This document shows positions 35,471 to 46,601 of a stretch of 64,000 bases of DNA, in pieces. The notes beneath the pieces are model-generated. The model made no database searches. It had not been told where the DNA came from and saw only the letters and a program-made list of their open reading frames with translations. Within the stretch, counting starts at the first letter, position 1, and every line of letters starts with the position of its first letter. The stretch comes from Polynucleobacter sp. IMCC 30228 (lineage in GTDB: Bacteria > Pseudomonadota > Gammaproteobacteria > Burkholderiales > Burkholderiaceae): NCBI RefSeq assembly GCF_021395205.1, contig NZ_JAJVCS010000002.1, forward strand, positions 248,001-312,000. The letters run 5' to 3'. The translations under genes were made by a program, and so were the position numbers.

Positions 35471-35525
35471 TTCCTATTTTGACAGGAAGTTGTAAAATTT
35501 TAGATGTTCAGTCATTTTGTAATAT

Positions 35526-35610
35526 GCCGACGTGGTGAAATTGGTAGACACGCTATCTTGAGGGGGTAGTGGCTTAGGCTGTGCGAGTTCGAGTCTCGCC
35601 GTCGGCACCA
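35526..35610 (+). tRNA. tRNA-Leu (anticodon GAG)
   Basis: 85 bases with encoded CCA. Acceptor GCCGACG/CGTCGGC; anticodon stem CTATC/GGTAG with loop TTGAGGG, anticodon GAG (decodes CUC/CUU); long variable arm TGGCTTAGGCTGTG typical of class II; T-arm GCGAG/CTCGC. It marks the boundary between the conserved secG block and a ~10-kb accessory block. Confidence 0.97.
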
Positions 35611-35767
35611 AATGATTTTTAAATGCTATTTGGCAGGATTCAGTATTATTGTTATCGAGCTCCCCCGATAAGTAGACTTGACCTTCATATTTTGCATCAT
35701 CTACTGTAAAATATTTGTTACTATTATTAGGCGTGTAATAAATTAACATATTTATGCGGAGTAGCGA

Positions 35768-37432
35768 ATGAATACAAAACTTTCTTTGTTCCTAGTTTCT
35801 TTAAGTACAGTATTTATCGTGTCCGCTTGTGGTGGTGAAGGCAGCATATCAAGTACTACACCTGCAAATAATGCAGCCTCAGCCATTCCTATGGCCGCCG
35901 CAGTAGATACTATAGGAAATAATAATTCAGGGTATCCAGCGGGACCTAACCTAGGTGGGTACTATTCTAGCGCCGCACCAACTTGCGGTTCTTCGCCTAC
36001 TGTAGAGTGTCTCGAGCGAGTTTATGAATCAAATTTTTGCCAGCTTGATCAAGGAGGCAGTCTTGCATCGGCCCAGTGCCAAGCAAATATTGCATATATT
36101 GCCAGTCAACCTGAAACTGGAAATTTTGATTTAAACAAAAAACCAATTCTGAATAATAGCGTAGGAGTAACAGGAGTTAATTTTTCTTCTATAAATTACG
36201 CCACTACTGTACCTCTACCGAATGGCAACCAAACATTTACAGTTTCTGGTGGGTTGGCTATGCCAACGGGAATTGAAAAGTCGAAAATCAAGGGGGTTAT
36301 CACCTATTTTCATGGGACTCAACTAGATAATCAAGATGTTGGATCAAATATTTCAAGTCCTAACACTTTACTGGCTTTATCTGTGTTCACCTCGCAAGGT
36401 TATATTGTGGTGCTACCCGACTATATTGGTCAGGGAGCTAATTATGGGGATGTACACCCATATGTTATCTATCCACAAGCAACTGCTAAAACAGCAATTG
36501 ATATGCTAAGCGCAGTCAAGCAAAGCATTCAAAGTCAATACGGTTATGTTGCCACCGATAAGTTAAAATTATTTTCAATCGGTTATTCTGAAGGTGGGGC
36601 ATATTCTCTGTGGTTCAATGCTTATATAAACGATAACCCAAAAGTGTTAGACGCCTTCTATACCTTAACCCATTCGGTTGGCGCCGAGGGTGCATACAGC
36701 ACATCCGATGTAACAAAAAGTTTTTTATTTGCAGATGTGAGTAAGTCTCCAAACTTATTTAATATTCAAAATCAATGGCTAACTAATGGAGTTAAACCCG
36801 CATTATTTGCTGATGCGATGTTGTCTTTTGCTACCTATTCACTGAATGCTGATTTCAGCTTATTTAATCCTGCCTTTTATGCTCTGACTTGTGGTAATTC
36901 ATTACTAGCTGATCAAGCTAAATGCAAATTTGGTGCGACAAAATATAATTTGGCCCAATCTTTTAGATTGAGTGCTACCTCTCCTGCATCTCAAGTGCTT
37001 AATAGTGCCTTTGGCAAAACTATGGGTAACTATACCTTTATAGAAAATGAATTAATGCTTTTTATATCGTCGCATAATAGCGCCTTCTCTTTACTGAGTT
37101 CGGAGGATCTTGCTAATGGCAGCACTGCAATTGGCGCTAAACTCAATGCTGCGCTAGTAGCAGCAGATGTAAATTTAAGTAACATACCGAATCGGAGTGT
37201 ATCTATCATTACGCTCGACCAAGACTCCGTAGTAAGTCCTAATAATTATGATGTTTTATTGGGAAAATATGCGGCAAAAATTAAAACGGCTATTAAAATT
37301 CCGGCTGAAATGATTCAAGTTGTTTCTCCCCTCTCAACCAATAAATCAGCTTTAAAATACATGCCAACGGATCATATTGAGGGGAACGCATATACATTTT
37401 TATATGCCCTCAATATTTTTAATCAGTTTTAA
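35768..37432 (+). CDS. Secreted lipoprotein with alpha/beta-hydrolase domain, function unknown
   Basis: 554 residues. Signal peptide with lipobox VSAC (Cys21) followed by Gly-Gly-Glu, then a Ser/Asn-rich linker and several cysteines (72-104). The hydrolase domain starts near 145: YFHGTQ oxyanion region (180-185), nucleophile elbow GYSEGG (Ser274), Asp in TLDQDS (484/486) and His536 in PTDHIEG. This is a plausible Ser-Asp-His triad, so an esterase or lipase at the cell surface is likely. I do not recognise the family. The gene is visibly more AT-rich than its neighbours, suggesting recent acquisition. Confidence 0.75.
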   Translation: MNTKLSLFLVSLSTVFIVSACGGEGSISSTTPANNAASAIPMAAAVDTIGNNNSGYPAGPNLGGYYSSAAPTCGSSPTVECLERVYESNFCQLDQGGSLASAQCQANIAYIASQPETGNFDLNKKPILNNSVGVTGVNFSSINYATTVPLPNGNQTFTVSGGLAMPTGIEKSKIKGVITYFHGTQLDNQDVGSNISSPNTLLALSVFTSQGYIVVLPDYIGQGANYGDVHPYVIYPQATAKTAIDMLSAVKQSIQSQYGYVATDKLKLFSIGYSEGGAYSLWFNAYINDNPKVLDAFYTLTHSVGAEGAYSTSDVTKSFLFADVSKSPNLFNIQNQWLTNGVKPALFADAMLSFATYSLNADFSLFNPAFYALTCGNSLLADQAKCKFGATKYNLAQSFRLSATSPASQVLNSAFGKTMGNYTFIENELMLFISSHNSAFSLLSSEDLANGSTAIGAKLNAALVAADVNLSNIPNRSVSIITLDQDSVVSPNNYDVLLGKYAAKIKTAIKIPAEMIQVVSPLSTNKSALKYMPTDHIEGNAYTFLYALNIFNQF

Positions 37433-37466
37433 AATACACTATACCTCTCTGTATCAAGGGCTTCCA

Positions 37467-38009
37467 TTATTTACCCAACACGCTCATATAGCCCGTCAGA
37501 TAAGAGATGGAAAAGAAGAGGGTATTAGTAATACCTTTTTTAGAGCTGACATTAATTTCAAAGCCGGTTTTCTTTTTTTGAACCAAAAAGTCTTCGCTAA
37601 GCTCGATTGAAATTTCCTCACCAAATTCGCAACCCATAGAACCGCATGGGCCGGCCATTCGATTAAGCGATTTAAATGGCACAGTTGCACCATTCACGAT
37701 TTGAGCCGATTGATATTCACGCATTCCATTCAAGTAAATGAGTTTTCCCACTGCGCGATAGGTCACATGCCCATGTGAATTTTTAGTAGCTACTAAACCA
37801 AACTGCTCACTAGTATTATCTGCGCCGATAGTAAAAATTTCTGGCCCAATATAAGTCACACTTTGATCAGTAGTCGAAGTTTTAATTTGAGTCGCTTTTG
37901 CTACCGAGGCAACTTCATCCGAGCTAATAACAATTTCATGGCTTGCGCAGGCAGTGAGCAAAATCCCAACCGTGAAGAGGGATAGAATTTTAAATAGCTT
38001 GGCGGGCAT
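37467..38009 (-). CDS. Putative lipoprotein, function unknown
   Basis: 180 residues from ATG 38009 (MPAKLFKILSLFTVGILLTACAS), chosen because it gives a clean lipoprotein signal with LTAC; the open frame extends 23 codons further up. The mature part has alternating strand-like segments (SDQSVTYIGPEIFTIGAD-like, TYRAVGKLIYLNG) and a CGSMGC motif. No family recognised. Converges on the AT-rich hydrolase gene; it may share origin with it. Confidence 0.6.
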   Translation of the reverse strand: MPAKLFKILSLFTVGILLTACASHEIVISSDEVASVAKATQIKTSTTDQSVTYIGPEIFTIGADNTSEQFGLVATKNSHGHVTYRAVGKLIYLNGMREYQSAQIVNGATVPFKSLNRMAGPCGSMGCEFGEEISIELSEDFLVQKKKTGFEINVSSKKGITNTLFFSISYLTGYMSVLGK

Positions 38010-38061
38010 GGGCAGCTTTAATGAGAAGGGATGCGTGATTCTAGCCTGAATTTTTGATAGG

Positions 38062-39030
38062 CTAATCGACTGACGCACCAGAGGCTTTCACCACCTTTTC
38101 CCATTTTTGAGTTTCAGCTGCAATAATTTTGCCAAAATCTTCTGGCGTACCAGGAATGGGTACTCCACCTAGCTCTGCAAGTTTTTCTCGCATTTTTGGT
38201 TCTGCCAAAATGCGATTTACTTCGGCGTTTACTCGATCAATTGCAGCGCGTGGTGAACCCTTTGGCATACCAATGCCAAACCAAGCAGTAGCTTCATAGC
38301 CAGGAACAGTTTCTGCGATCGTGGGTACATTGGGCAAAGAAGGGTCACGCGCCGCAGAGGTAACCGCTAAGGCACGCAGACTGCCAGACTTAATATGGCC
38401 TGCAGATGAAGGCAAGTTATCAAATAAGACTTGTACTTGACCAGCCATCAGGTCTACTAAAGCTGGGCCTGCGCCTTTATAGGGAACATGCAACATATTA
38501 CAACCCGTCATCGATTTAAATAGTTCGCCTGATAAATGCACTGAAGTGCCACTACCCGAGGATGCCATATTGACTTTGCCGGGATTAGCTTTGCAGTAAG
38601 CAATAAATTCAGCCACTGTTTTAATGGGCAATGAGGGTGGAATGACCATTACATTCGGGGTACGCACAATGCCAGCTACGGGAGCGATATCACGTATAAA
38701 GTTGTAATTCAGATTTTTGTAAAGCGAGGCATTAATACCATTAGCTGGATTGACGAGCAACATCGTGTAACCATCGGGCGCCGACTTAATGACAAATTCA
38801 GTGCCAATATTATTACCGCCACCAGGCTTATTTTCAACAATAACACTTTGCCCTAATAGTTGTGTTAATGGTTGAGCCATAATGCGAGCAAGGACATCTG
38901 TAGTGCCAGCAGGGGGATAAGGTACGACCCATTTAATTGGTCGCTCGGGATAGTCGGCTGCCGCAACTGGATTGATTAAAATAATAAAGGTGCAAATGCC
39001 CGTTAAAACAATTTTGCTAAGGGATGTCAT
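38062..39030 (-). CDS. Bug/TctC family periplasmic substrate-binding protein
   Basis: 322 residues. Signal peptide ending NPVAAADYPERP. Motifs: PIKWVVPYPPAGTTDVLAR, VIVENKPGGGNNIGTEFVIKSAPDGYTML, NPGKVNMASSGSGTSVHLSGELFKS, HVPYKGAGPALVDLMAGQVQVLFDNLPSS. Ribosome site AGGAGACCAT. The amidase gene lies 26 bases upstream in the same direction, so the pair may take up and hydrolyse the same amide, or a product of it. No TctAB genes nearby. Confidence 0.93.
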   Translation of the reverse strand: MTSLSKIVLTGICTFIILINPVAAADYPERPIKWVVPYPPAGTTDVLARIMAQPLTQLLGQSVIVENKPGGGNNIGTEFVIKSAPDGYTMLLVNPANGINASLYKNLNYNFIRDIAPVAGIVRTPNVMVIPPSLPIKTVAEFIAYCKANPGKVNMASSGSGTSVHLSGELFKSMTGCNMLHVPYKGAGPALVDLMAGQVQVLFDNLPSSAGHIKSGSLRALAVTSAARDPSLPNVPTIAETVPGYEATAWFGIGMPKGSPRAAIDRVNAEVNRILAEPKMREKLAELGGVPIPGTPEDFGKIIAAETQKWEKVVKASGASVD

Positions 39031-39056
39031 ATGGTCTCCTGATTATTTTTTCTATA

Positions 39057-40478
39057 TTACAAGCAAATTGGAGGTCGTGTTAGACCAAATTGGGTGCTTT
39101 GTTCAAAAGCATACGCTAATTGCAAAACGTCAAAGTCGGCGCGGTGGCGCCCGACAATTTGGACGCCTACTGGCAGCCCAGTAGCAGTAAACCCGCCCGG
39201 CACTGAAATAGCCGGATTGCCTAAAGCGCTAATTAAATAGAGTGATTTCTGCCAGTCGATATAGGTCTGCATCGGCACCCCATTGATATCGCGTGGATAG
39301 TCGAGATCAAGCGAAAAGGGCAGAACTTGATTAACGGGCAAGATTAAAAACTCATATTGAGCCATAAATTCGCGCATGCGGTGGTAGAGCTCGGTGCGTT
39401 TAGCTTCAGCACGAGCCAACTGGGGCCCAGTGATGGGTATGCCTTGTTCGGCATTCCAAATGACCGTATCTTTGAATTTTTTACCATGTTCTGCCATCAA
39501 AGGGGTGATGCGCAGCTCAGTACGCCATGCGCGCCACAACATAAAGATCTCATCTGCTTCGGCAATATCGGGTTCGGCGTTGACTACTTCACAGCCCAAT
39601 GCCTCAAAGACCGAGCGTGAAGCTTCTAAAACGGTAGCGACTGCAGGCTCGACGGGTAGTCCACCCAAGTTTGCGCTAAAGGCGATTTTGACGCCACGGA
39701 AATCTCGGCTTAGTGGCTGGTTAAAAATAGTGCCAGGGGCCTCAAGTGCAATCGGTGAGCGATCATCAGGCCCCGCCATGGCTGACATCGCTAAGGCTAA
39801 ATCAGGCACATTGCGGGCCATGGGTCCCGCTACACTCATGGTGTACCAGCCTAACTGATCGGGCCAATTGGGCACGCGACCAACTGAGGGGCGTAAACCC
39901 ACCACATTGCAAAAATTGGCTGGATTGCGCAGCGAGCCACCTAAATCGGTGCCATCGGCTAAAGCAATCATGCCAGTAGCTAAAGCAACGGCACCCCCAC
40001 CAGAAGAGCCACCACAGGTTTTACTCAAATCGTAAGGGTTTGGGGTAGCGCCAAATACAGCATTAAAAGTTTGACTACCAGCCCCAAACTCAGGCGTATT
40101 AGTTTTGCCTAAACTAATAGCGCCAGCTTTTTTAAGCCGTTCAACTGGCAATGAATCTACTTCTGGTACGTAGTCTTTGAAGGCTAGCGAGCCAAAGGTG
40201 GTTCTCACCCCTTTAGTGAGAAATAAATCTTTGTGGGCCACTGGTAAGCCATGTAAGACCCCAATAGGTGCGCCAGTTGCGATTTGTAAGTCGGCCCTGT
40301 GAGCCTCTTGCATGGCTGAATCTGCAGTGAGGGTAACGATAGCATTTAGGGTAGGATTGAAGCGTTCAATTTGATCTAAGTGTGCTTGAATTACTTGTGT
40401 GGCTGATAGTTTTTTGGTACGCATGAGCATTGCTAGTTGCGTAGCCGGAAGGAAACAGAGATCAGAATTGAAGGACAT
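39057..40478 (-). CDS. Amidase (amidase-signature family)
   Basis: 473 residues, full length. Amidase-signature enzymes use a Ser-cisSer-Lys triad: Lys83 (LPVAHKDLF), cis-Ser in CGGSSGGGAVALATGM (158/159) and nucleophile Ser182 in GTDLGGSLRNPA are all visible. Cytosolic (no signal). Substrate unknown; the group includes indoleacetamide hydrolases, glutamyl-tRNA amidotransferase A and carbamate hydrolases, and a stand-alone gene argues against GatA. Probably co-transcribed with the downstream Bug gene. Confidence 0.9.
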   Translation of the reverse strand: MSFNSDLCFLPATQLAMLMRTKKLSATQVIQAHLDQIERFNPTLNAIVTLTADSAMQEAHRADLQIATGAPIGVLHGLPVAHKDLFLTKGVRTTFGSLAFKDYVPEVDSLPVERLKKAGAISLGKTNTPEFGAGSQTFNAVFGATPNPYDLSKTCGGSSGGGAVALATGMIALADGTDLGGSLRNPANFCNVVGLRPSVGRVPNWPDQLGWYTMSVAGPMARNVPDLALAMSAMAGPDDRSPIALEAPGTIFNQPLSRDFRGVKIAFSANLGGLPVEPAVATVLEASRSVFEALGCEVVNAEPDIAEADEIFMLWRAWRTELRITPLMAEHGKKFKDTVIWNAEQGIPITGPQLARAEAKRTELYHRMREFMAQYEFLILPVNQVLPFSLDLDYPRDINGVPMQTYIDWQKSLYLISALGNPAISVPGGFTATGLPVGVQIVGRHRADFDVLQLAYAFEQSTQFGLTRPPICL

Positions 40479-40603
40479 ATTTTGCTATTTTTAGCCGGTT
40501 AGGGTTTTACTTTAGCTCGCAGAAAATGGGTAGAATGGGCAAGCATAATACTATTTATAAATTCGCTTATAAAACTTGATTAATCCACGAATAGGGGATA
40601 GCT

Positions 40604-42433
40604 TTGCAAGCTACTAATATTAATAATCCTGCTTATTTTCATAAAGTAGTCGATTGTCAGTGGGCATGCCCAGCTCACACCCCTGTTCCTGAATATATCC
40701 GCCTCATTGCACAGGGTCAATATACCGATGCCTATATGGTTAATTGGGTATCGAACGTCTTTCCTGGAATTCTCGGCCGCACCTGTGACCGCCCGTGCGA
40801 GCCCGCCTGTCGTCGCGGTAGAGTGGAAGAGAATAATGGCGCTGATCCTGAACCAGTAGCCATTTGTCGTTTAAAACGCGTTGCCGCTGATTTTAAAGAC
40901 GATGTGAAGGCACGGATGCCTAAGATAGCAAAAAAAAATGGTAAACGCATTGCTTGTGTGGGCGCTGGTCCATCATCGTTAACGGTAGCCCGCGATTTAG
41001 CACCTTTAGGTTATGAAGTAACAGTGTTCGATGGCGAGCAGCGAGCTGGGGGATTTATTCGTTCACAAATACCGCGTTTTCGTTTGCCCGAATCGGTAAT
41101 TGATGAGGAGACTGGATATATCCTCGATTTGGGGGTTCACTTTAAAGGTGGTGAGCGCATTACTTCAATGAGTGCTTTGTTAGCCGCTGGTTTCGATGCA
41201 GTTTATGTGGGCTCTGGGGCTCCCCGTGGCAGAGATCTAGATCTGCCTGGACGCCAAGCAGCAGCCGAGCAAATTTATATTGGAATTGATTGGTTGGCTT
41301 CTGTTTCTTTCGGGCATATTACGAGCATTGGCAAAAAAGTGATTGTGTTAGGCGGTGGGAATACCGCAATGGATTGTTGCCGTTCGGCTAGACGGTTAGG
41401 CAGCACGGATATTAAAGTCATTGTGCGCAGCGGCTTTGATGAAATGAAAGCCTCGCCTTGGGAAAAAGAGGATGCGATTCATGAAGGGATTCCAATTATT
41501 AACTTTCATGTGCCAAAAACTTTCGAGGTGCAAAACGGTAAATTAATTGGCATGACGTTTGCGGTAGTCGAGGCGGTTTATAACGAACAGGGCGAACGGA
41601 AATTAATCTCTAATGGCGAGGCCGATATCTTTATTGAATGCGATACGGTGTTATTAGCTGTGGGACAAGAAAATGCCTTTCCTTGGATTGAGGCAAATAG
41701 CGGTATTCAGTTTAATCGCCATGGCCTGCCAGAGCTAGATGCGATTTCTTTTCAATCAACCAATCCGCTGGTGTTCTTTGGTGGCGATGCCGCATTTGGC
41801 CCCAAAAATATTATTACTGCAGTAGCGCATGGTCATGAAGTAGCGGTCTCAATCGATCGTTTTCTACATCATGAATCGCCAGACCTTAGACCGCCTCCCC
41901 GCACCAATTTAATGTCACAAAAAATGGGGATTCATGAGTGGAGCTATCACAATGATGTGTCTGTAGATTTACGCTTTCCAGTGCCATGGGCTGAAGCAGC
42001 AAAGGCATTAGCCAATATTCGGGTTGAGGTTGAATTAGGCTTTGACGCCGCTACTGCATTTAAAGAGGCCAATCGTTGTTTAAATTGCGATGTCGAAACT
42101 GTCTTTACTCGTGAAACTTGCATTGAGTGCGATGCCTGTGTGGATATCTGCCCAATGGACTGTATTACCTTCACTGAAAACGGTGATGAGCCTGATTTGC
42201 GTTTACGTTTAAAAGCACCCGCTACTAATCTCACCCAAGCGCTTTATGTCTCAGCGAATCTGAAATCGGGGCGAGTGATGGTGAAAGATGAGGACGTCTG
42301 CTTACACTGCGGCTTATGTGCCGAGCGGTGCCCAACTGGCGCATGGGATATGCAGAAATTTTTGTTAGAAACGACGCAGGCTGGCCCAGCATGCCGAGAC
42401 CAAAAATTGCACCTCCCGGTGGAGTTGGTATGA
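40604..42433 (+). CDS. FAD-dependent oxidoreductase fused to a 2[4Fe-4S] ferredoxin domain (GltD/PreT-like; Kor third subunit candidate)
   Basis: 609 residues from TTG 40604 behind AGGGGAT. N-terminal Cys-rich segment (CQWACPAHTPVPEYIRL, RTCDRPCEPACRRGRVEE) as in glutamate synthase small subunit; FAD fold CVGAGPSSLTVARDL (from about 117); NAD(P) fold IVLGGGNTAMDCCRSAR (from about 246); C-terminal ferredoxin with CIECDACVDICPMDC (from about 506) and CLHCGLCAERCPTG (from about 566). It could pass electrons between NAD(P) and ferredoxin clusters. Its stop overlaps the korA start by four bases, so it is very probably a subunit or dedicated partner. Confidence 0.85.
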   Translation: MQATNINNPAYFHKVVDCQWACPAHTPVPEYIRLIAQGQYTDAYMVNWVSNVFPGILGRTCDRPCEPACRRGRVEENNGADPEPVAICRLKRVAADFKDDVKARMPKIAKKNGKRIACVGAGPSSLTVARDLAPLGYEVTVFDGEQRAGGFIRSQIPRFRLPESVIDEETGYILDLGVHFKGGERITSMSALLAAGFDAVYVGSGAPRGRDLDLPGRQAAAEQIYIGIDWLASVSFGHITSIGKKVIVLGGGNTAMDCCRSARRLGSTDIKVIVRSGFDEMKASPWEKEDAIHEGIPIINFHVPKTFEVQNGKLIGMTFAVVEAVYNEQGERKLISNGEADIFIECDTVLLAVGQENAFPWIEANSGIQFNRHGLPELDAISFQSTNPLVFFGGDAAFGPKNIITAVAHGHEVAVSIDRFLHHESPDLRPPPRTNLMSQKMGIHEWSYHNDVSVDLRFPVPWAEAAKALANIRVEVELGFDAATAFKEANRCLNCDVETVFTRETCIECDACVDICPMDCITFTENGDEPDLRLRLKAPATNLTQALYVSANLKSGRVMVKDEDVCLHCGLCAERCPTGAWDMQKFLLETTQAGPACRDQKLHLPVELV

Positions 42434-44280
42434 AGCGTATTGAAGCGATTAATGATTTCGTAATTAAGTTTGCTAATGTCAACGGCTCTGGATCTGCTTC
42501 TGCCAATGAGCTCTTTGCTAAAGCTATTCTACGGATGGGTGTGCCAGTTAGCCCGCGAAATATTTTTCCGAGCAATATTCAGGGTATGCCAACTTGGTAT
42601 GAGGCGCGCGTTTGCTCTAAAGGATATTTAGGGCGCCGAGGAGGGGTTGACATCATGGTAGCGATGAATCCCCAAACTTGGGATGCCGATGTCGCCGAAA
42701 TTGAGCCCAATGGTTATCTTTTTTATGATTCAACTCGCTCGATACCTGAGACTCAATTTCGCCAAGACGTGCATACCATTGGCGTACCTCTAACTGAAAT
42801 TAGTAATGCTAATTATCCCGATGCCCGCCAACGTCAATTATTTAAAAATATTATTTATGTTGGCGCTTTATCGGCTTTGTTAAAGGTCGATACTGCGGTT
42901 TTTGAAAAATTGTTTGCTGAGCAATATAAAGGCAAGGAAATTTTGCTTGATTCTAATATTAAAGCTTTTCATTTAGGCTATAACTACATTCAAAAGCATT
43001 TTAAAGATGCCTTGGGTATTCAAGTGCGCCGTGAAGATCAAGTCGGGGAGAAAATTTTTATTGATGGCAATAGCGCCATTGCGTTGGGCTGTGTTTATGG
43101 TGGCGCGACCGTGGCAGCTTGGTATCCAATTACACCGTCATCTTCGGTTCCAGAAGCCTTCCAAAAATATTGTGAACGTTTTCGAGTCGACAAAAAAACT
43201 GGGCATGATCGTTTTGCCATCATTCAAGCTGAAGATGAGTTAGCTTCAATTGGTATTATTATTGGCGCTGCTTGGAATGGGGCGCGGGCATTCACTGCGA
43301 CCTCAGGCCCAGGTATTTCGCTGATGACAGAATTTATTGGCTTGGCTTACTTTGCTGAAATTCCGGTTGTCATTATTGATGTACAGCGGGGTGGGCCTTC
43401 CACGGGAATGCCGACTAGAACTCAGCAATCAGATTTGCTGGCCTGTGCTTATGCCTCGCATGGCGATACTAAACATGTTTTACTTTTTCCTGAAGATCCC
43501 TATGAATGCTTCGAGCAATCAGCCGCGGCGCTAGATTTAGCTGAGTTATTACAGACCCCTATATTTTTAATGACCGATTTAGATATTGGCATGAATCAGC
43601 GTTTAAGCAAACCATTTTCGTGGGATGAACGGGAAGCATATTACCGAGGCAAGGTGATGTCATTCGCAGACCTAGAAGCGGGGAAAGATTTTGGCCGCTA
43701 TAAAGATGTTGATGGCGATGGTATTCCTTGGCGTACTTTACCGGGTACTCATCCCACTAAGGGTAGTTTTTTTACCCGCGGCACAACCCGTGACCCCTAT
43801 GCTCGTTATTCTGAGCGAGGGCCTGACTATATTTACAACATGGAGCGCTTAATACAGAAATTTAAAGTGGCAGCGGATTTAGTGCCGCAGCCAATAATTG
43901 AGCAAGGCAAAACCCCCAGCCAATTTGGAGTAATTTATTTCGGCTCAACCAGCCCAGCAATGCAAGAAACGCTCGATGTGCTGCGGGCTGATAACATCGT
44001 GCTTGATGCGATGCGAATTCGGGCTTTTCCTTTTTCTAAGGTGGTTAGTGATTTTATTGCCCAGCATGAGAAAGTTTTTGTGGTCGAGCAGAATCGCGAT
44101 GCCCAAATGCATACCTTGCTAACGACTGAATTAGCCATTGATCCAGCTCATCTCATCAAAATATTGCATTATGACGGGACGCCTATTACCGCACGTTTTA
44201 TAGTGGCGGCGATCAATCAATATTTGAAAGCAGAGGCCTCCACCAAATCGAATGCACGCCTAGAGAAGGAATCATCATGA
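42430..44280 (+). CDS. korA: 2-oxoacid:acceptor oxidoreductase, fused gamma-alpha subunit (KorA-like)
   Basis: 616 residues from ATG 42430, which overlaps the upstream stop (ATGA); the longer frame to 42316 is only upstream coding in another frame. N-terminal gamma domain (NVNGSGSASANELFAKAILRMG ... SKGYLGRRGGVD), then the alpha domain from about 215 (WYPITPSSSVPEAF, SGPGISLMTEFIGLAYFAEIPVV, QRGGPSTGMPTRTQQSDL). With KorB it oxidatively decarboxylates a 2-oxoacid to acyl-CoA. Similar fused subunits belong to 2-oxoglutarate enzymes in aerobic and denitrifying betaproteobacteria; the exact oxoacid is uncertain. Confidence 0.83.
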   Translation: MKRIEAINDFVIKFANVNGSGSASANELFAKAILRMGVPVSPRNIFPSNIQGMPTWYEARVCSKGYLGRRGGVDIMVAMNPQTWDADVAEIEPNGYLFYDSTRSIPETQFRQDVHTIGVPLTEISNANYPDARQRQLFKNIIYVGALSALLKVDTAVFEKLFAEQYKGKEILLDSNIKAFHLGYNYIQKHFKDALGIQVRREDQVGEKIFIDGNSAIALGCVYGGATVAAWYPITPSSSVPEAFQKYCERFRVDKKTGHDRFAIIQAEDELASIGIIIGAAWNGARAFTATSGPGISLMTEFIGLAYFAEIPVVIIDVQRGGPSTGMPTRTQQSDLLACAYASHGDTKHVLLFPEDPYECFEQSAAALDLAELLQTPIFLMTDLDIGMNQRLSKPFSWDEREAYYRGKVMSFADLEAGKDFGRYKDVDGDGIPWRTLPGTHPTKGSFFTRGTTRDPYARYSERGPDYIYNMERLIQKFKVAADLVPQPIIEQGKTPSQFGVIYFGSTSPAMQETLDVLRADNIVLDAMRIRAFPFSKVVSDFIAQHEKVFVVEQNRDAQMHTLLTTELAIDPAHLIKILHYDGTPITARFIVAAINQYLKAEASTKSNARLEKESS

Positions 44281-44293
44281 AGAAAGAATCAGC

Positions 44294-45349
44294 ATGACGT
44301 ACATTGCTAAGCCGAGCATGCATCACCCGAGTTTAAGTACCAATAAGGTGGGCTATACCAGACGTGATTATGAGGGGCGTATTTCTACCTTATGTGCAGG
44401 TTGCGGGCATGACTCAATTTCTGCAGCAATTGTGCAGGCTTGCTGGGAAATGGATATTGAACCGCATCGAGTCGCTAAATTATCAGGTATTGGATGCAGC
44501 TCTAAAACTCCTGACTATTTTCTGGGCGCTTCCCATGGGTTTAATACCGTGCATGGCAGAATGCCCTCAGTATTAACTGGCGCTAATTTAGCGAATCGTG
44601 ACCTTTTATATTTAGGCGTTTCGGGCGATGGTGATTCTGCTTCAATTGGTTTAGGTCAATTTGCCAACGCCATGCGGCGGAGTGTAAGAATGACTTACAT
44701 CGTTGAAAATAACGGTGTCTATGGCCTCACTAAAGGGCAATTTTCTGCCACTGCCGATCGTGGTTCGAAAAGCAAGAAGGGGATTGTTAATAACGATAGC
44801 CCAATTGATTTAGTGGGCTTAGCTTTACAGTTGGGCGCGACCTATGTAGCGCGCAGTTTTTCTGGTGATAAAGAACAATTAGTGCCTTTGATTAAAGGCG
44901 CGATTGGTCATGGTGGCGCAGCTTTTATTGACGTAATTAGCCCCTGCGTCACTTTTAATAATCATGGCGGTAGTACTAAAAGTTACGATTATGTAAGGCA
45001 ACATAATGAAGCAGTTAGTCGTATTGATTTTATCTCCCAGCACTCGGAAATTACCACTGCGTATGCCCCTGGCGAAGTGGTTGAAGTACTACAGCATGAT
45101 GGTAGTTATTTAAGGTTGCGTAAATTGGATGATAATTATGATCCCACTAATCGCTATGCAGCCTTAAGCTACATCAATGAACATCAAGAACGCGGCGAAG
45201 TGGTGACGGGTTTGCTGTATTTAGATCCGCTTGCCAGCGATTTACATGAAGCGTTAAATACGTGTGTAGAACCGTTGAATTCTTTGGGTGTAGCTGAGCT
45301 ATGTCCAGGGTCTGAGGCTTTGGCAAAAATAAACGCCTCCTTACGATAA
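44294..45349 (+). CDS. korB: 2-oxoacid:acceptor oxidoreductase, beta subunit (KorB-like)
   Basis: 351 residues. Thiamine diphosphate and one Fe-S cluster subunit. TPP site: GVSGDGDSASIGLGQF and VENNGVYGLTKGQ. Cluster cysteines: TLCAGCGHDSI and SGIGCSSKTPDY, with a further Cys in ISPCVTFNNHGGSTKSYDY, the latter block typical of 2-oxoglutarate and related KorB proteins. It starts 13 bases after korA. Together the three proteins (about 66, 67 and 38 kDa by length) would form a complete complex. Confidence 0.85.
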   Translation: MTYIAKPSMHHPSLSTNKVGYTRRDYEGRISTLCAGCGHDSISAAIVQACWEMDIEPHRVAKLSGIGCSSKTPDYFLGASHGFNTVHGRMPSVLTGANLANRDLLYLGVSGDGDSASIGLGQFANAMRRSVRMTYIVENNGVYGLTKGQFSATADRGSKSKKGIVNNDSPIDLVGLALQLGATYVARSFSGDKEQLVPLIKGAIGHGGAAFIDVISPCVTFNNHGGSTKSYDYVRQHNEAVSRIDFISQHSEITTAYAPGEVVEVLQHDGSYLRLRKLDDNYDPTNRYAALSYINEHQERGEVVTGLLYLDPLASDLHEALNTCVEPLNSLGVAELCPGSEALAKINASLR

Positions 45350-45375
45350 AACATTTATTTTTTTAGGTGCGAATG

Positions 45376-45816
45376 ATGACTGAACGATCTGTCTCCAAAT
45401 CTATTGTGCATAGTAACTTAGTGCGTTTGCCGCCGAGCGCGACCATTCTAGATGCAGCGCGCACGATGACCAAGGCAAACTGTGGCAGCGTCCTAATTAT
45501 TTCACCAAATGGCGTCTTAGAGGGTATTGTGACCGAGCGCGATTTAATGACGCGGGTATTAGCTAAGGGCTTGATTCCAGAAAAAACGCTTGTATCTCAG
45601 GTGATGACTCCTAATCCCCATTGTGTGCCCCCTGAAATGATTGTGTCACATGCAGTAATGATCATGATTGAACGCGGTTTTAGGCATTTACCCATTGTTG
45701 CTGATGATGGAAAAATATTAGGGGTTTTTTCTGCACGCGATGCCTTGCCGAGAGAAATTAGTGATGCCCTTAGTTTGGCTGAATTTCATGATCAGATGAA
45801 TGATCCGTTGGTTTAA
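45376..45816 (+). CDS. CBS-domain pair protein
   Basis: 146 residues from ATG 45376, six bases after a perfect AGGTG; ATG 45373 and GTG 45367 are alternatives. Two tandem CBS motifs (VRLPPSATILDAARTMTKANCGSVLII ... GIVTERDLMTRVL; MTPNPHCVPPEMIVSHAVMIMIERGFRHLPIV ... GVFSARDAL), a Bateman module that binds adenine nucleotides. No effector domain. Next to the Kor cluster it may be an energy-state sensor, but this is only suggested by position. Confidence 0.88.
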   Translation: MTERSVSKSIVHSNLVRLPPSATILDAARTMTKANCGSVLIISPNGVLEGIVTERDLMTRVLAKGLIPEKTLVSQVMTPNPHCVPPEMIVSHAVMIMIERGFRHLPIVADDGKILGVFSARDALPREISDALSLAEFHDQMNDPLV

Positions 45817-45833
45817 TTGAATAGGGGCATGCA

Positions 45834-46070
45834 ATGGAAAGAAAAATCGCCAAGAATGAGCCATATCCTGTAGAGGTTCAGGCTGGCAAAACGTATGCGT
45901 GGTGTTCCTGCGGGCTCAGCAAAACTCAGCCTTTTTGTGATGACTCGCATCAAATCACCGACTGTATGCCCTTTGAATTTACGGCTACTGAAAGTAAGGT
46001 CATGTATTTCTGCGGGTGCAAACAAACCGTCTCTCCCCCCCTTTGTGATGGGTGCCACCGAGCACTATAG
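45834..46070 (+). CDS. Double-CDGSH iron-sulfur domain protein
   Basis: 78 residues. Two CxCx8CDx2H motifs: Cys24, Cys26, Cys35, His39 (CSCGLSKTQPFCDDSH) and Cys60, Cys62, Cys71, His75 (CGCKQTVSPPLCDGCH). Each binds a [2Fe-2S] cluster with three Cys and one His, as in mitoNEET-type proteins; the tandem form resembles the MiNT/CISD3 group. Likely cytosolic and redox-active. Good ribosome site AGGGG. It sits between the Kor cluster and complex I. Confidence 0.93.
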   Translation: MERKIAKNEPYPVEVQAGKTYAWCSCGLSKTQPFCDDSHQITDCMPFEFTATESKVMYFCGCKQTVSPPLCDGCHRAL

Positions 46071-46176
46071 GGGGTCAGTGAGAAGGGCATTGGCTAGGTG
46101 CGGTTTAAGCCGCATATTCAGGCCCCAAGAATAGGCTTATTTCCCCCGAATTTCAGCTAGTCTAGAGGAAAACCCT

Positions 46177-46182
46177 TATAAT
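46177..46182 (+). promoter_or_regulatory. Consensus -10 hexamer upstream of nuoA
   Basis: A perfect TATAAT within the 171-base gap between the CDGSH gene and nuoA. No good -35 at 16-18 bases. A small hairpin (TGCGG 46099-46103 / CCGCA 46110-46114) precedes it but has no T-run. Confidence 0.45.
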
Positions 46183-46241
46183 CTTGTCTGTATTTCAGAA
46201 GAGCAATCTAGGCTTCGCTTGATAACTGATTTAGGCTAAAT

Positions 46242-46601
46242 TTGAACCTCGCAAACTACTTTCCGGTTTTGCTTTTTATCCTTGTGGGCATTGCCGTTGG
46301 TTTAGTGCCTATGTTGCTAGGCAAGTTAGTCGCCCCCTCTAGCCCTAACGCAGAAAAACTCTCTCCTTACGAATGCGGCTTCGAGGCATTTGAAGATGCG
46401 CGGATGAAATTTGATGTGCGCTATTACCTCATTGCCATTCTCTTTATTTTGTTCGACCTTGAAACGGCTTTTCTATTTCCTTGGGGGGTAGCTTTACGAG
46501 ATATTGGTTGGGCAGGCTATGCCTCGATGCTTGTCTTCCTCTTGGAATTCGTGGTTGGCTTTGTTTACATCTGGAAAAAGGGCGCCCTCGACTGGGAGTA
46601 A
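46242..46601 (+). CDS. nuoA: NADH-quinone oxidoreductase subunit A
   Basis: 119 residues from TTG 46242; [12 protein letters not shown] is the family N-terminus and no ATG serves. Three membrane helices and the conserved [38 protein letters not shown] loop at the Q-site. First gene of the 14-gene complex I operon; nuoB starts five bases after the stop. Confidence 0.95.

Follow-up and report, generated by a model that had tools for sequence, protein, structure and literature searches.

Organization of the kor operon

Five genes on the forward strand, at positions 40604 to 46070 of the window (the whole 64,000-nucleotide stretch of Polynucleobacter sp. IMCC 30228 DNA analyzed here), form one operon. 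Three are similar to korC, korA and korB and are given these names here; they are followed by a gene for a CBS-domain protein and a gene for a CDGSH iron-sulfur protein. Judged from sequence, and with a probability of about 0.6, the product of this operon is a KorABC-type 2-oxoglutarate:NADP+ oxidoreductase (coenzyme A (CoA)-succinylating; NADP+, nicotinamide adenine dinucleotide phosphate), which would provide a conditional, NADPH-yielding bypass of 2-oxoglutarate dehydrogenase.

The korC gene (40604..42433) has a TTG start codon preceded by a GGGGAT stretch. It encodes a protein of 609 aa with iron-sulfur cysteines at the N terminus, a GltD-like flavin adenine dinucleotide (FAD)/NAD(P) module, and a 2[4Fe-4S] ferredoxin at the C terminus. 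The korA gene (42430..44280, 616 aa) encodes the fused gamma-alpha subunit of a 2-oxoacid:acceptor oxidoreductase. The open reading frame finder places its start at 42316, and the ATG at 42430, which overlaps the korC stop codon (ATGA), is preferred. The korB gene (44294..45349, 351 aa) begins after a gap of 13 bp and encodes the beta subunit, with the thiamine-diphosphate domain. The computed masses of KorC, KorA, and KorB are 66.8, 68.6, and 37.8 kDa, respectively. The CBS-domain gene (45373..45816, 147 aa, two repeats) follows after 23 bp, and the CDGSH gene (45834..46070, 78 aa, PF09360) carries two CDGSH-like motifs, identified by eye. The reading frames of all five genes are intact, and nuoA starts downstream of the CDGSH gene, at 46242. 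An earlier, sequence-only reading of this DNA had described a three-gene unit, overlapped or tightly spaced. The three open reading frames and their spacing are as it described, but the unit runs on through the CBS and CDGSH genes.

At least 591 relatives were found among named genomes, the best 80 of which were taken for analysis of their loci, with neighboring genes counted by direct tblastn. In the 58 of these loci with 6 kb or more of sequence before the korB end, korA is found upstream of korB in all 58 and korC in 57. The kor trio are therefore not chance neighbors. One locus (L106:6152-9053) has korA and korB with no korC match in the upstream sequence examined, and its combined KorA and KorB sequence forms a long branch in the tree described below.

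The order korC-korA-korB is also found on plasmid 2 of Aromatoleum aromaticum EbN1 (NC_006824.1, locus L014), which is typed as conjugative. Its KorC, KorA, and KorB match the window proteins at 65, 65, and 74 percent. There are differences in the partner genes, however. A CBS gene adjoins kor on the plasmid, but it is located upstream of korC and is only 26 percent alike to the window CBS protein, and there is no CDGSH match within the 18.6 kb examined.

The flavin/ferredoxin subunit

KorC is a member of the GltD-like NAD(P)-linked iron-sulfur flavoproteins. The Pfam domains Fer4_20, Pyr_redox_2, and C-terminal Fer4_7 are all above cut-off, the FAD motif, a second dinucleotide motif and both CxxCxxCxxxCP ferredoxin motifs are present, and the fold matches solved members of the group. 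The scores for the glutamate synthase small subunit models are all below cut-off (TIGR01316, 254.3 bits against 471.75; TIGR01317, 150.6 against 447.7; TIGR01318, 198.4 against 482.95). The nearest solved relatives, by both sequence and predicted fold, are the NfnABC and StnABC large subunits, together with that of NfnI. The earlier description of KorC as GltD/PreT-like thus stands for the GltD-like module with its fused ferredoxin, whereas the likeness to PreT is loose. The best fold match has an E value of 5.5e-36, for a predicted structure of mediocre quality (mean pLDDT, predicted local distance difference test score, of 68.3). The cysteine regions of this model have pLDDT values below 50, and cluster geometry is not readable from it.

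Fifteen cysteine residues are invariant among 36 KorC sequences: Cys18, Cys22, Cys61, Cys65, Cys69, Cys492, Cys495, Cys506, Cys509, Cys512, and Cys516, and likewise Cys566, Cys569, Cys572, and Cys576. Their positions would fit a set of N-terminal clusters and a 2[4Fe-4S] ferredoxin. The pair Cys492/Cys495, in an RCxxC motif, is located after the flavin module, as in the NfnABC/StnABC-type structures (9bov, 9n5u, and 8oh5). In comparison, the pair in the NfnI large subunit (5jca) is located before this module. All four of these large subunits have the GltD-like FAD/NAD(P) module in common with KorC. However, the Nfn and Stn enzymes are electron-bifurcating transhydrogenases with other partner subunits, while KorC is paired with a thiamine-diphosphate enzyme.

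Residue conservation was counted in 99 stretches (98 loci and the window, with at least one pair, L028 and L037, from the same contig). Cut or broken genes were left out, giving 77 korC, 88 korA, and 99 korB genes. Arg275, Ser276, and Lys282, in the loop past the second Rossmann strand of KorC, are kept in 77 of 77. The equivalent residues in dihydropyrimidine dehydrogenase are Arg, Lys, and Arg, for the recognition of NADPH. The loop suggests that NADP+ is likely to be favored over NAD+ as the nucleotide of KorC. Against this stands Ser276, which occupies the position of a basic NADPH residue in dihydropyrimidine dehydrogenase, and because of this replacement NAD+ is also a possible, if less probable, acceptor.

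The alpha and beta subunits and their substrate

The family placement of KorA and KorB is based on a comparison of model scores. KorA is matched by the Pfam domains POR (109.9 bits) and POR_N (164.8 bits) and passes the OAFO alpha model TIGR03710, with 577.7 bits against a cut-off of 482.75. KorB has TPP_enzyme_C and PFO_beta_C above cut-off. For both proteins the best-scoring models are of the OAFO/Kor type, ahead of the Por, Vor, Ior, and phenylglyoxylate models. These scores and the domains of KorC bear out the earlier description of a 2-oxoacid oxidoreductase made of three subunits, one of them a GltD-like flavin/ferredoxin protein.

The top solved relative of KorA is 6n2n, and those of KorB are 5b48 and 6n2n. 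The structures 6n2n and 6n2o are of the 2-oxoglutarate:ferredoxin oxidoreductase of Magnetococcus marinus. Its match to the fused alpha subunit is nearly full-length (E value of 1.2e-62). Two features set it apart from the window module: it has an Arg residue at the position equivalent to beta Lys49, unlike the window KorB, and it is not known to have a GltD-like subunit.

Substrate recognition has been described for the Sulfolobus 2-oxoacid:ferredoxin oxidoreductase (OFOR) (PMC5020499). The carboxylate is bound by alpha Thr256 (of the YPITP motif) and Arg344, alpha Thr349 belongs to the residues binding or admitting 2-oxoglutarate, and the use of this substrate is shaped by alpha Asp468 together with beta Lys49 and Leu123. 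The same report notes that StOFOR1 needs alpha Asp468 for the use of 2-oxoglutarate, and that the Hydrogenobacter Kor has a Leu residue at this position (PMC5020499). In an alignment to the Sulfolobus enzyme, the window KorA and KorB keep the YPITP motif, alpha Arg344 and Thr349, and beta Lys49 and Leu123. Within the clade, all 88 KorA sequences have alpha Arg344 and Thr349, and all 99 KorB sequences have beta Lys49 and Leu123.

Several observations weigh against this assignment. KorB is below the cut-off of the PorB/KorB model TIGR02177 (199.6 bits against 261.9, the best stretch being residues 33–223) and of NF008820 (203.4 against 402). Moreover, the position of alpha Asp468 is occupied by Thr in 88 of 88 sequences, followed by Thr/Ser and then Arg/Lys. 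The Thr residue is no clean veto, since the Hydrogenobacter Kor has Leu there. The residue pattern as a whole favors 2-oxoglutarate as the substrate, short of proof.

The same architecture could instead oxidize another substrate, for example 2-oxoadipate or a branched-chain or aromatic 2-oxoacid, to its CoA ester with NAD(P)+. The residues around the Asp468 position differ from those of the solved relatives aligned, 2-oxoglutarate is already served by the sucAB products in this genome (see below), and acyl-CoA dehydrogenase genes are found near kor on the EbN1 plasmid. On the other hand, the remaining substrate-determining residues compared match those of 2-oxoglutarate users, and the models for other substrates score far under their cut-offs (PorA_Arch, 60 bits against 550; VorB, PRK07119, 132.5 against 399; IOR_alpha, 42.6 against 650.9; PadG, 48.3 against 700). 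The surroundings of kor also hold no constant pathway neighbor: kor and CBS aside, each cluster of neighboring genes occurs in at most 20 of the 99 stretches (one 29-locus cluster was set aside as an apparent shadow frame). We therefore consider a different substrate rather unlikely, and 2-oxoglutarate the better candidate.

A second, distant 2-oxoacid oxidoreductase alpha subunit is encoded near kor in three loci (L034:8051-10953, L038:10617-12985, and L041:12176-14092). The corresponding beta subunit is also present in L034 and L038, and the alpha subunit of L034 is above the TIGR03710 cut-off.

Proposed reaction and electron path

A 2-oxoglutarate:NADP+ oxidoreductase with three subunits was reportedly described from Azoarcus (Aromatoleum) evansii by Ebenau-Jehle, Boll and Fuchs in 2003. 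This KorABC enzyme (KGOR) includes a flavin subunit, as does the window module, and the likeness of the two is one of description. A later report groups the flavin subunit of the A. evansii enzyme with GltD-like proteins (PMC10134865), and another gives the Thauera counterpart as ferredoxin-dependent (PMC2984482).

By the proposed mechanism, KorA and KorB, with bound thiamine diphosphate, CoA, and a single 4Fe-4S cluster, would decarboxylate 2-oxoglutarate to succinyl-CoA and CO2. The two electrons would pass singly from the cluster of the beta subunit to the two C-terminal ferredoxin clusters of KorC, then to its N-terminal clusters, and on to the FAD, which would transfer a hydride to NADP+. 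The direct coupling of 2-oxoacid oxidation to NAD(P) proposed in the sequence-only reading agrees with this path, as NAD(P) is most likely where the electrons go. The reversibility proposed there is unsupported, however. Oxidation of 2-oxoglutarate with NADP+ as the acceptor is steeply downhill.

A reductive 2-oxoglutarate synthase, in which NADPH would drive the carboxylation of succinyl-CoA for assimilation, is hardly credible. Related two-subunit enzymes do serve the reverse tricarboxylic acid (TCA) cycle. However, NADPH is too weak as a donor by about 0.15 V unless the reaction is coupled, and the operon holds no further flavin subunit or electron-bifurcating partner subunit.

Insertion between tRNA-Leu and nuoA

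The kor module is located in inserted DNA beside the complex I (nuo) genes. In the window, 10.6 kb (35611..46241) separate tRNA-Leu(gag) from nuoA. The spacing was compared with that in 20 relatives (17 without kor and three with kor elsewhere), a selection from the 57 genomes, out of 61, in which nuoA was matched. The tRNA gene is 70–133 bp before nuoA in 19 of these and 823 bp before it in the other. No exact match of at least 10 bases, which could mark a tRNA attachment-site repeat, is found on either strand between 35481–35700 and 45701–46300; an integrase was not searched for. Rfam models find two tRNAs and nothing else.

The arrangement beside nuoA is shared with two genomes of the genus, G061 (locus L017) and G001 (locus L018), and with the named record L032. 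A general functional link between kor and nuo is rejected: the two adjoin in only three of the 16 kor-positive genomes of the genus (the window genome, G061, and G001), and in L032. No nuoA match is found in the stretches around kor from the other 13, some of which are short.

The insertion also contains a gene at 35768–37432 with weak lipase/peptidase-type Pfam matches. It has no match in L018, whose island is otherwise alike, and the G+C content of positions 36001–38000, which cover it in part, is 0.387.

Distribution of the kor module

The kor module is accessory in the genus, Polynucleobacter, and common in the order, Burkholderiales. Clade korB is present in 16 of 151 genomes of the genus (11 of the 117 of good quality), and in 82 of 399 genomes and 36 of 158 genera of the order. 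Of the 98 genomes of one family, 72 have korA, spanning 24 of 26 genera; in another family the figure is 9 of 11. Relatives among the matches listed include Rhodoferax, Polaromonas, Ramlibacter, Variovorax, Roseateles, Accumulibacter, Lysobacter, and Brevundimonas, among others. In a tree of KorA and KorB (88 rows, built by a quick method), the 15 rows of the genus cluster within a Rhodoferax-type group, interrupted only by a record that is identical to one member.

The patchy presence in the genus and the location in an insertion would also fit an island that came in by horizontal transfer, is now silent or in decay, and no longer serves a function. We regard this as very improbable. All five frames are intact, the catalytic motifs are conserved across the clade, and the genomes of the genus keep kor and the CDGSH gene, with the CBS gene in 10 of 16, together at differing genomic sites.

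Metabolic context

The genome contains sucA above cut-off, with sucB adjoining and also above cut-off. This rules out kor as a substitute for an absent 2-oxoglutarate dehydrogenase, and the alternative TCA route suggested earlier is not supported if it is meant to replace that step. As the genome also encodes the usual enzyme, kor is read as a bypass, which would be of greatest use at low oxygen and high NADH levels.

The genome had been described as aerobe-like. This needs qualification, as narG is present above cut-off (G000:C11:65747-71515) with narJ close by, so the organism is not clearly a strict aerobe, and nitrate respiration by this supposed aerobe is likely. Within the genus, 5 of the 16 kor-positive genomes have narG above cut-off, against 12 of the 135 without kor (p = 0.02), a point in favor of the bypass reading. 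The other 11 kor-positive genomes, some of them incomplete, have no narG above cut-off, which counts against it.

The A. evansii enzyme is tied to aromatic ring reduction. This role is rejected for the window genome, which has no match to PF06050, the benzoyl-CoA reductase family. Elsewhere in the order, adjacent PF06050 genes that score like a pair of benzoyl-CoA reductase subunits are found in 14 genomes. Eight pairs were checked with NCBIfam models; seven pass the model for benzoyl-CoA reductase subunit C (G160, G231, G251, G447, G464, G502, and G526), and that of G160 passes the subunit B model as well. The eighth, G188, is rejected as a benzoyl-CoA reductase genome, as its pair belongs to another member of the superfamily and is below all cut-offs. 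With G188 left out, clade korB is found in 11 of the 13 genomes with such a pair and in 71 of the 386 others (p = 8.5e-7). It is present in 5 of the 7 genomes checked by NCBIfam (p = 0.005), and in 12 of 19 when all PF06050 genomes, including other types, are counted. The co-occurrence fits the known Azoarcus partnership. Its weight is reduced by phylogenetic non-independence (6 of the 11 genomes are from one family) and by the checking of only 7 of the 13 pairs; moreover, most kor-positive genomes of the order (71 of 82) lack such a pair.

These data also bear on a role as a ferredoxin reducer, in which NAD(P)H or 2-oxoglutarate would drive the complex to charge a low-potential ferredoxin for a dedicated reductase. 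One report credits the A. evansii enzyme with ferredoxin regeneration (PMC8163825), and the co-occurrence with benzoyl-CoA-reductase-type genes in the order points the same way. However, the window genome without a PF06050 match and the many kor-positive genomes without the pair make such a role improbable here.

The family probably corresponds to the known 2-oxoglutarate:NADP+ oxidoreductase and serves ring reduction where that pathway exists. Elsewhere, including in the window genome, it would probably provide a bypass that yields NADPH when oxygen is low or nitrate is respired.

The CBS and CDGSH partners

The CBS protein matches PF00571 in two stretches, with 94.7 bits against a gathering threshold of 24, and the CDGSH protein matches PF09360 with 55.9 bits against 29.5. 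At an E value of 1e-20, the CBS gene is found in 10 of the 16 kor-positive genomes of the genus and in none of the 135 kor-negative ones. Among the 80 named loci, those with a beta subunit identity of 80 percent or more have it directly after korB in 31 of 38 cases (two more, with less than 500 bp past korB, were left out), compared to 2 of 40 below 80 percent.

The CDGSH gene is near kor, on the same contig, in all 16 kor-positive genomes of the genus. Its position varies: after the CBS gene, after korB, or before korC. A homolog is also present in 22 of the 135 kor-negative genomes. In the set of the best 80 named loci, a CDGSH gene within 7 kb of kor is limited to L032 and L037. Both are counted to the genus, L037 as the contig of G139 and L032 for its resemblance to the window locus. 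In a kor-negative relative (L153:619-3146), the CDGSH gene follows a catalase-peroxidase KatG-like gene, recognized by eye, which hints at a redox-stress setting.

The CBS protein may be a nucleotide sensor for the kor module, and the CDGSH protein may act as a small partner in redox reactions or in the maintenance of clusters. In a more elaborate scheme, the five genes would encode a nucleotide-gated, electron-splitting complex. Reduced by the oxidation of 2-oxoglutarate, the flavin of KorC would feed NADP+ (or ferredoxin) and also, as a second acceptor of higher potential, the [2Fe-2S] CDGSH protein. The CBS protein would switch the complex on in response to the adenylate or pyridine-nucleotide level. 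We consider this scheme highly unlikely. A narrow search of open-access literature found no report that brings together any two of 2-oxoacid ferredoxin oxidoreductases, CDGSH proteins, and CBS domains, which is weak ground for calling the combination undescribed. The core enzyme looks like a known, little-studied kind, and the linkage to CBS and CDGSH genes like a new part of the module.

Two other types of genes are found near kor: a gene for an RnfB-like ferredoxin (with the Pfam domains FeS and Fer4_21; for example L059:9563-10219) in 15 loci, and a PhaZ-like gene, recognized by eye, in 19. Both are nearly always on the opposite strand and probably reflect an old gene order.

Implications

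If the proposed function is correct, an enzyme class usually linked to anaerobic ring reduction would be a widespread accessory in the order (korB in 82 of 399 genomes). It would be found mostly in genomes without a benzoyl-CoA-reductase-type pair, where it would give a second, NADPH-yielding step for 2-oxoglutarate. The linkage to the CBS and CDGSH genes is a concrete, testable lead to the control of kor, and if the electron-splitting scheme were true, the operon would represent a new kind of regulated 2-oxoglutarate dehydrogenase bypass in oxygen-using bacteria. The assignment as a 2-oxoglutarate:NADP+ oxidoreductase would also be a caution not to conclude that an organism is a strict anaerobe, or runs a reverse TCA cycle, from a 'ferredoxin-type oxidoreductase' in its genome.

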